Below, piece by piece: positions 56,534-58,678 of a stretch of 64,000 nucleotides of DNA. The stretch is from an uncultured Selenomonadales bacterium (GTDB lineage: Bacteria > Bacillota > Negativicutes > Acidaminococcales > Acidaminococcaceae). Position 1 is the stretch's first letter. The number at the start of each line of letters is the position of its first letter. A program made the position numbers and the translations under genes. The notes beneath the pieces are model-generated. The model saw only the letters and a program-made list of their open reading frames with translations, did not search any database and was not told the origin of the DNA. Where the stretch lies: positions 1-64,000 of the forward strand of contig ONAV01000013.1 in assembly GCA_900315925.1 (NCBI GenBank), given 5' to 3'.

Positions 56534-56575
56534 ATTATATCATAAATTGACAAAAGCGACGTAACGTAATAAGAT
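56534..56575. promoter_or_regulatory. Divergent promoters
   Basis: On the + strand, TTGACA (56547-56552) and TAAGAT (56570-56575), 17 bases apart, lead to the thioesterase. On the - strand, TATAAT (56539-56534) with an extended TG serves the small hypothetical gene. The two overlap. Confidence 0.65.
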
Positions 56576-56634: not shown

Positions 56635-57138
56635 ATGAAAGAACAGGAACAGAAGCATAACGGATTTCCACCTTCCAACCTGCCGCGGGATCCGGAGACG
56701 GGATATTTTCTGGACGTACCCGCGCGCATCCGGGAAATTTATAAGCACAATTGCTTTATGTCGGATTTTTTCCACATCAGCATTGATGAGATTTATTGCG
56801 GTGGCGCCCAGGTCAGCCTGCATATTGAACATGACAAACATGCCAACCACCGGAATGTAACCCATGGCGGCGTGTTGACGGCGCTGGCAGATTCCGTACT
56901 GGGAGTGACCGGCGCTTCTGTCGGAGAAGCTGTAGTAACTGTAAACTTTTCTATGGATTTCATCAGTAACGTAAGTATGGACGGCACAGTGCGTATGATC
57001 AGCAATATCAAACATCACGGCCGGACTACCATGGTCATCGTAGGTGAGATGTATGACAACAAAAACCGCCTGCTGGCCACCATGATGGCATCCATGGTGA
57101 ATGTAGATAAAATCGAAGGAATACCCAGCAAGTGGTAA
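56635..57138 (+). CDS. PaaI-type hotdog-fold acyl-CoA thioesterase
   Basis: The 167-residue protein has the hotdog signature of the PaaI family, HGGVLTALADSVLGVTGASVG, preceded by an acidic helix and followed by the beta strands VTVNFSMDFISNV and MVIVGEMYDNKNRLLATMMASMV. Such enzymes hydrolyse acyl-CoA thioesters; the acyl group is unknown. It overlaps the upstream in-frame extension of the aminotransferase-like gene, and the two probably form one transcript. Confidence 0.85.
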   Translation: MKEQEQKHNGFPPSNLPRDPETGYFLDVPARIREIYKHNCFMSDFFHISIDEIYCGGAQVSLHIEHDKHANHRNVTHGGVLTALADSVLGVTGASVGEAVVTVNFSMDFISNVSMDGTVRMISNIKHHGRTTMVIVGEMYDNKNRLLATMMASMVNVDKIEGIPSKW

Positions 57139-57152
57139 TAACGGAGGCTCAC

Positions 57153-58016
57153 ATGAAAACCAATCTGATTTTAATCAATAATGATATTGTGGATGCAGAA
57201 GAAATCAATGTGCATCCTTTTAACCGGGGTCATCAGTTCGGGGACGGCGTGTATGAAATTGTCCCCGTCTATAATGGAAAGGCCCTGCATGCGGAAATGC
57301 ATATGGAAAACCTGCTGAATGCACTGGTGCAGATTAAGGTTCCCGGCTTCTATATGGTAGAAGAAATGGTGGAATTTACAAGCCGGATGATCGAAGCGGC
57401 TGAAGTGACTGACGGTCTGCTCTATACGCAGGTGACCCGTGGAATCGGACCGTATGAGCTGGATTTTCCGGAACAGTGTGAACCGGAACTGATCATGCAG
57501 GCTGTGCCGCTGAACCGGGACACGCTGGCGGAACAGAGAAAGACCGGCGTAAACCTGATTACAGTTCCGGACGAACGGGCTGTCAAGTGTGAACTGAATA
57601 CATTGAACCGTCTGCCGGAAATTTTGGCGAAGAACAAAGCCCGCATCGGGAAATGCTATGATGCGTTGTTTGTGCGGGATGAAAAAATAACGGAAGCAAC
57701 CGAAGCTGCGTTTATGATTGTGAAAGATGAACTGCTTTGGACGTATCCCATGAAGCTTGGCAGTGTACATCAAAATGTGACACGGCAGCTGGTTAAAGAA
57801 AAACTGGCGGCGACACTGGACATGCAGGTAATCGAAAAAGCATTTACTAAAGAATTTGCGCTGGAAGCGGAAGAAGCGTTCCTGTGCGGTTATCGCTGCG
57901 AAATCATGCCGGTAGCAAAAATTGACCGGAGACCGGTGGCAGATGGCAAACCGGGTAAAGTAACCCTTCAGTTGCAGACGGCTTTTGAAGAGTATATTCA
58001 GGAACAGACGAAATGA
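57153..58016 (+). CDS. Class IV aminotransferase homologue lacking the PLP lysine
   Basis: The 287-residue protein matches D-amino-acid and branched-chain aminotransferases of fold type IV: HPFNRGHQFGDGVYEIVPVYNG, YTQVTRGIGPYEL, LFVRDEKITEATEAAFMIV (the conserved Glu) and EIMPVAKIDRRPVADGKPG. Where family members have the Schiff-base lysine (DIKSLNLL in Bacillus D-amino acid transaminase), this protein reads ELNTLNRL, putting Asn 149 (codon AAT 57597-57599) in its place. The SSN loop is also changed. It may be a non-catalytic or altered-function paralogue. ATG 57153 has ACGGAGG in front. Confidence 0.82.
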   Translation: MKTNLILINNDIVDAEEINVHPFNRGHQFGDGVYEIVPVYNGKALHAEMHMENLLNALVQIKVPGFYMVEEMVEFTSRMIEAAEVTDGLLYTQVTRGIGPYELDFPEQCEPELIMQAVPLNRDTLAEQRKTGVNLITVPDERAVKCELNTLNRLPEILAKNKARIGKCYDALFVRDEKITEATEAAFMIVKDELLWTYPMKLGSVHQNVTRQLVKEKLAATLDMQVIEKAFTKEFALEAEEAFLCGYRCEIMPVAKIDRRPVADGKPGKVTLQLQTAFEEYIQEQTK

Positions 58017-58531
58017 CAGATCCGCAACGTAACCGTGCGCTGGTGCGGGCTGCGCTGTGTCTGGCCATCGCGGTTGTGGTACAGGCTCTGCGGGTATTCC
58101 TGCCATTGCCGCCCATCGCATCCATGCTGCTGATCGGTACAGTGGTGAACCTCTGTCTGTGCTTCGCGGTATGGGGGAGTGGGATCCTGTATGCGGGAAT
58201 TATCTGCCTGCTCCTTCCGGTTTTCGCATTCTTACAGGGGCATTTGCCCGTATTGCCGATGGTGGCAGTGGTGTTTTTGGGAAATCTGGTGTTTTGCGTT
58301 GTAGTACAGCAGAAAAAACGGTGGAAGCATTATGTGTTTGCGCCATTGCTGAAAGCGGTAACGCTGTGGTCCTGTACGGGTATCGTGTGCAACCTGTTCC
58401 GGCTGCCCCAGCAGGCAAAGTATCTGCTGCAGGTTTCCATGGGGATTCCCCAGTGGACAACGGCGTTGCTTGGTGTTATTGCTGCTGCGTTTTTGTGGAA
58501 ACGGTTGCGGAAGAGCGGAAGCATATTGTGA
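58013..58531 (+). CDS. Integral membrane protein, possibly ECF transporter S component-like
   Basis: The 172-residue protein has about five hydrophobic helices (ALCLAIAVVVQALRVFLPLPP..., VAVVFLGNLVFCVVV and others) and a short basic C-terminus. The opening helices, with a proline-rich turn, recall substrate-binding subunits of ECF transporters, but no family motif is certain. It overlaps the aminotransferase homologue by four bases (ATGA), so the two are coupled. Confidence 0.7.
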   Translation: MTDPQRNRALVRAALCLAIAVVVQALRVFLPLPPIASMLLIGTVVNLCLCFAVWGSGILYAGIICLLLPVFAFLQGHLPVLPMVAVVFLGNLVFCVVVQQKKRWKHYVFAPLLKAVTLWSCTGIVCNLFRLPQQAKYLLQVSMGIPQWTTALLGVIAAAFLWKRLRKSGSIL

Positions 58532-58540
58532 AAAAACCCA

Positions 58541-58569
58541 TTGACAAACCGAAACACCAATGATAATAT
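58541..58569 (+). promoter_or_regulatory. tRNA-Leu promoter
   Basis: TTGACA (58541-58546) and TAATAT (58564-58569) are 17 bases apart, 22 bases before the tRNA. Confidence 0.8.
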
Positions 58570-58591: not shown

Positions 58592-58678
58592 GCCGCTGTG
58601 GCGGAATTGGCAGACGCACTTGACTCAAAATCAAGCGCCTTTGCGGGCGTGCCGGTTCGACTCCGGCCAGCGGCACCA
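58592..58678 (+). tRNA. tRNA-Leu (anticodon CAA)
   Basis: The 87-base tRNA has acceptor arms GCCGCTG and CAGCGGC, an anticodon stem CTTGA/TCAAG with loop CTCAAAA (anticodon CAA, reading UUG), a long variable arm as in tRNA-Leu, the T arm GCCGGTTCGACTCCGGC and encoded CCA (58676-58678). Confidence 0.97.

Follow-up and report, generated by a model that had tools for sequence, protein, structure and literature searches.

PLP enzymes are defined by the lysine that forms the Schiff base with their cofactor. In the DAAT of Bacillus sp. YM-1 (PDB 1DAA family), this residue is K145, and its replacement has reportedly been studied in two ways: Bhatia (cited in PMC8105722) is said to have described the kinetics of a Lys-to-Gln mutant in 1993, and a Lys-to-Asn mutant is said to carry out slow partial reactions. 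Loss of the lysine alone need therefore not end the chemistry. Such mutants lack the same residue as the protein described below, but they are single laboratory mutants in which the rest of the active site is intact. Another possible parallel is PDX1.2 of Arabidopsis (subject of a title cited in PMC6522883), reportedly a pseudoenzyme of B6 metabolism that works with active paralogues. It would resemble the present case in being a catalytically inactive relative that has been retained for a role of another kind, but its fold is unrelated, and active paralogues are absent from the system described here. From the YM-1 structure, we take E177 to contact the PLP ring nitrogen N1 and L201 to be an active-site residue. 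K145, E177 and R50 form the core catalytic set of both DAAT and aminodeoxychorismate (ADC) lyase (PMC8105722), the carboxylate trap of DAAT includes, besides Y31, the residues R98 and H100, both of which act across the dimer interface (PMC10003956), while L149 of the YM-1 enzyme is an O-pocket residue (PMC8401098). For class IV proteins devoid of the lysine, the open-licence literature yielded nothing relevant.

The DNA analyzed here (the window) is a stretch of 64,000 nucleotides from a metagenome-assembled genome (MAG) of a Succiniclasticum-related bacterium (Acidaminococcaceae, Negativicutes). It contains, at 57153..58016 on the plus strand, a gene for a Lys-less class IV aminotransferase homologue of 287 amino acids, referred to below as pseudo-DAAT. 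As the first-pass annotation of this DNA had stated, the frame is intact, running unbroken from the ATG at 57153 to the TGA at 58014-58016, and it is preceded by a good ribosome-binding site (GGAGG, 57143-57147). The stop codon overlaps the start of the next gene in an ATGA at 58013-58016, so the description of a coupled gene set was correct, too. The protein matched the whole PF01063 profile with 93 bits (cut-off 28.5) and thus belongs by sequence to the class IV superfamily. It also gave full-length matches to a solved D-alanine aminotransferase (E = 1.6e-46) and to YM-1 DAAT (E = 2e-43), with which it shares the domain order, the motifs RGxxFGDGVYE and TRG, and E177. The best NCBIfam model was TIGR01121 (DAAT), and the score of 212.5 bits, unlike that of the YM-1 group, lies under the equivalog cut-off of 277.45. 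In the YM-1 sequence that served as the alignment reference, K145, R50, R98, H100 and E177 carry the numbers used in the published papers and are placed as in the alignment to the PDB entry.

In the alignment with YM-1 DAAT, Asn149 (codon AAT, 57597..57599, plus strand) occupies the position of K145 without any gap (CELNTLNRL versus CDIKSLNLL), and this lies within a homology that spans the full length of both proteins. The two earlier observations, namely that asparagine stands at the PLP lysine position and that the following SSN loop is altered, were therefore confirmed, the latter by the changed SSSN motif (179-182). The lysine with which PF01063 proteins form the Schiff base is thus replaced by a residue that is invariant in the Acidaminococcaceae proteins read. 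Could another lysine have taken over its role? Only K191 and K256 are invariant across the Asn-type clade, and their invariance is what would be expected if either of them carried PLP in a working transaminase. However, K191 (YM-1 K187) is also present in most Lys-type enzymes, which use K145, K256 replaces E250 of YM-1 outside the reported pocket-lining residues, and both R50 and the carboxylate trap have been lost along with K145. We therefore consider a transaminase operating through K191 or K256 to be very unlikely.

Asparagine was found at this position in 44 of the 44 distinct Acidaminococcaceae genomes read, which represent 14 genera and include two isolates, S. ruminis DSM 9236 and P. 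faecium DSM 14760. The homologues in question are 45-88% identical to the window protein, and both AAT and AAC codons occur among their genes. The first-pass annotation had raised the possibility that close homologues would carry lysine, and this did not prove to be the case: every Acidaminococcaceae homologue read has asparagine, and lysine appears in most of the order- and class-level relatives, at 37-43% identity. In a tree calculated with the active-site columns masked, the Asn-type genes formed one clade (SH-aLRT 99) arising from Lys-type ancestors. As judged from these sequence comparisons, Asn149 is a family-wide feature with a single origin: a Lys-type DAAT gave rise to it in the line of the Acidaminococcaceae.

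The dN/dS ratio among nine Succiniclasticum genes was about 0.06, which is a rough figure because dS exceeds 1, and it indicates that the gene is under strong purifying selection. Cross-genus identity of pseudo-DAAT (45-59%) is close to that of RecJ (57-59%), that is, divergence is ordinary. A protein that is conserved and kept by selection has hence lost a catalytic residue, as is expected of a pseudoenzyme. A point mutation or a sequencing error is ruled out by the 44 genomes, two isolates among them. The broader notion of a decaying relic or an assembly error draws on the fact that loss of catalysis often comes before loss of the gene, on the origin of the window from a MAG contig and on the lack of the gene in one genus of the family (g13). 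Yet the same residue in isolates and in 44 genomes, the dN/dS of 0.06 and the intact frames refute it at the sequence level, and we give it hardly any credence.

The loss of the lysine is accompanied by a rebuilding of the surrounding pocket (all positions below are on the plus strand and were derived from the alignment). The phosphate-binding arginine R50 is replaced by Asn53 (57309..57311), and the carboxylate-trap residues R98 and H100 by Tyr101 and Leu103 (57453..57461), so that the trap Y31, R98, H100 reads Tyr, Tyr, Leu in the window protein. L149 of the O-pocket corresponds to Arg153 (57609..57611), an arginine in 26 of 27 non-redundant clade members. The segment at 57693..57704 extends from Glu181, which is equivalent to E177 and invariant in the clade, to Glu184, where YM-1 has S180 and the clade has Glu or Asp throughout. 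His206 and Asn208 (57768..57776), standing for L201 and G203, are clade-specific pocket residues, and Gly246-Tyr247-Arg248 (57888..57896) takes the place of the S240-T241-T242 turn, the sequence being GPR in most of the clade. Compared with YM-1 DAAT, the window protein therefore lacks K145, R50, R98 and H100, and its SSSN and STT turns are rebuilt. Across the Asn-type clade, R50, R98, H100, S180, L201, G203 and the S240-T242 turn have all been replaced, mostly by fixed new residues, and type-II divergence is seen in the pocket at H100 (to L), K145 (to N), L149 (to R), L201 (to H) and G203 (to N), with R50 changed to N in most members. Taken as a set, the pocket columns are strongly conserved in Lys-type enzymes (fewer than 0.00005 of random column sets were as low) but only marginally more conserved than other columns in the Asn-type clade (0.057 of random column sets), a point against the reading preferred below. 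A structure prediction from 12 homologues reached a pLDDT of 37, too low for use.

The family-wide asparagine, together with the replacement of R50, R98 and H100 by conserved residues, lends good support to the original suggestion of a pseudoenzyme or a changed reaction. On the basis of the sequence comparisons, it is highly probable that this is a conserved protein that is not a PLP-lysine transaminase. E177 and, in most members, T205 are retained and leave room for residual cofactor binding. An enzyme that dispenses with the lysine, using a non-covalent cofactor or none and employing N149, R153, E184, H206 and R248, would be in line with several pocket residues being frozen on new identities and with the reported behavior of the K145 mutants of YM-1 DAAT. 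It has to be set against the loss of R50 and S240/T241 in Acidaminococcaceae, which makes PLP binding itself look impaired, and neither a reaction nor a substrate can be named for it; we consider such an enzyme unlikely.

Further support for such an enzyme comes from a census of homologues in a sample of 300 Negativicutes genomes, in which most matches above E = 1e-40 were read (codes with f, g, G and L are internal labels for families, genera, genomes and loci). Outside Acidaminococcaceae, most homologues have lysine at the K145 position. The nearest relatives of pseudo-DAAT are Lys-type DAATs of Acidaminococcales and other Negativicutes (L057, L051, L061; 37-43% identity), which differ from it in having complete catalytic residues and in passing TIGR01121 with 310-334 bits. 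Lysine is missing, however, in three other groups, which resemble pseudo-DAAT in that the gene has been kept and H100 has usually been lost: all nine DAAT homologues of family f35 (L187-L195) have leucine, a subclade of f15 (L162-L165, L167, L183-L185) has Asn, Ala, Gly or Pro, and one genome of f23 (G059, L062:3843-4697) has Arg, with Cys at H100. They differ from pseudo-DAAT in the residue found (L, A, G, P, N or R) and, for f35 and f15, in their separate origins. In L187-L195, R98 is changed to His (with one exception) and H100 to Phe. The Gly and Pro types of f15 also carry L149R, the identical change seen in Acidaminococcaceae. A further apparent loss, Glu in G150:C3, was discarded as a BCAT-type gene misaligned at the K145 site, and beyond Negativicutes no Lys-less relative was encountered, the 20 best Bacillota outgroup matches all having lysine. 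The well-supported branches of the tree require a minimum of three switches between Lys and non-Lys within Negativicutes; the lysine has been lost independently at least three times, and the gene was retained each time. The Lys-less proteins of f15, f35 and f23 keep E177 and mostly also R50 (with one exception) and T205, so PLP could still bind there.

Since the loss is fixed in nearly the whole family and has occurred at least three times in the class, pseudo-DAAT has, on this comparative evidence, probably been kept for a different job than transamination. Whether that job could be to assist an active relative was judged from the gene content of the genomes. Enzymes of fold type IV mostly form dimers whose active sites are shared, and R98 and H100 act across the interface (PMC10003956), so a structural or regulatory subunit in a heterodimer with an active class IV paralogue would be conceivable. 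However, no other PF01063 gene is present in the genome of the window or in most Acidaminococcaceae genomes, nor did the four f35 genomes checked contain a second class IV gene (4/4), and this makes a role as partner of an active paralogue scarcely tenable. Genus g13 of the same family (G025, G036, G112, G116, G126 and others) has no pseudo-DAAT; several of its genomes harbor a different class IV gene. Of the 11 genomes checked, every one had glutamate racemase (MurI), and 10 had an alanine racemase (Alr) match above the cut-off. These racemases supply D-amino acids, and DAAT activity is therefore dispensable for the cell wall. No match to PabB was obtained in four Succiniclasticum genomes, G014, G028 or G213. 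An identity as ADC lyase was rejected in view of Asn149 in place of the catalytic lysine and the missing PabB in Succiniclasticum. The status of pseudo-DAAT as the sole class IV gene in most genomes, the presence of MurI and Alr, and the lack of PabB together favor a binding or regulatory role for the protein as a pseudo-transaminase. We put such a non-catalytic role at somewhat better than even.

The neighboring genes were inspected as well. Upstream lies a gene for a hotdog-fold (PaaI-like) thioesterase (56635..57138, plus strand; PF03061, 46.7 bits; TIGR00369, 50.9 bits) that ends 14 nucleotides before pseudo-DAAT and is presumed to share its transcript; among the loci inspected, the two genes are neighbors in Succiniclasticum and in one further genus only. 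A sigma-70-like promoter match (TTGACA-17-TAAGAT, 56547..56575, plus strand) precedes the three-gene set; this is a consensus match only, and nine such matches were found versus 5.0 +/- 2.1 in shuffles. The overlapping downstream gene (58013..58531, plus strand) encodes a 172-amino-acid membrane protein with a distant likeness to ECF transporter S components. It received no Pfam or NCBIfam name above the cut-off, and PF12822 was matched by 2 of its 15 homologues, the best of them with 30.6 bits versus a cut-off of 30.7; EcfT is present in the genome. The membrane protein family has invariant Q24, R27, N46, Q75, K114 and Q147 and is linked to dat genes across Negativicutes. Just downstream is tRNA-Leu(CAA) (58592-58678), with a promoter-like site at 58541-58569.

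By a hand count, the membrane gene lies immediately 3' of about 35 of 41 Asn-type loci. It also adjoins Lys-type DAATs (f4, f25, f19), directly downstream in some of the Lys-type Negativicutes enzymes, and it is not directly adjacent to the Lys-less genes of f35, the f15 subclade and f23. The linkage is thus older than the loss of the lysine and no specific proof of partnership, which weakens the candidacy of the membrane protein as a specific partner. Because of this and of the weak ECF-S assignment, a functional link with the protein encoded at 58013-58531 is a lead only, and a doubtful one. The shared neighborhood of Lys-type and Asn-type genes would fit a second, lysine-free function common to all these proteins and exposed once transamination became dispensable, as would three or more losses within one class with the gene kept every time. 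The clade-specific rebuilding of the pocket, however, suggests that the site itself has changed in Acidaminococcaceae, beyond an old role being exposed, and we find this moonlighting explanation rather improbable.

Our preferred reading, a binding or regulatory pseudo-transaminase, may be formulated as follows. Pseudo-DAAT would be a DAAT-derived protein of fold type IV that no longer forms the internal aldimine with a PLP-binding lysine. We infer that the old active site now accommodates a small molecule without a covalent bond, or else keeps a shape that another protein recognizes; pseudo-DAAT would then serve in binding, in regulation or as a scaffold, and no longer in transamination. Its partner might, speculatively, be the membrane protein whose gene overlaps its own and which may be the substrate-binding subunit of an ECF importer. 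With the ring-nitrogen glutamate retained and no phosphate site left, an unphosphorylated molecule of the pyridine type, for example a B6 vitamer, is a speculative candidate for the ligand. A DAAT-fold protein working without the PLP lysine, as a new lysine-independent enzyme or an importer-coupled ligand receptor and with this step repeated in Negativicutes, is rather less likely than not.

With K, N, A, G, P, L and R found at this position, the repeated, selected loss of the lysine offers a natural series in which to ask what a transaminase scaffold does after transamination has ceased. It also bears on genome annotation: two Lys-less proteins, L062 of f23 and L163 of the f15 subclade, just exceed the TIGR01121 cut-off, and this model is therefore no test for the lysine. 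As Lys-less genes score near or above the DAAT equivalog cut-off, annotation may over-predict D-amino-acid metabolism, and this may apply to common rumen and gut genera such as Succiniclasticum and Phascolarctobacterium.
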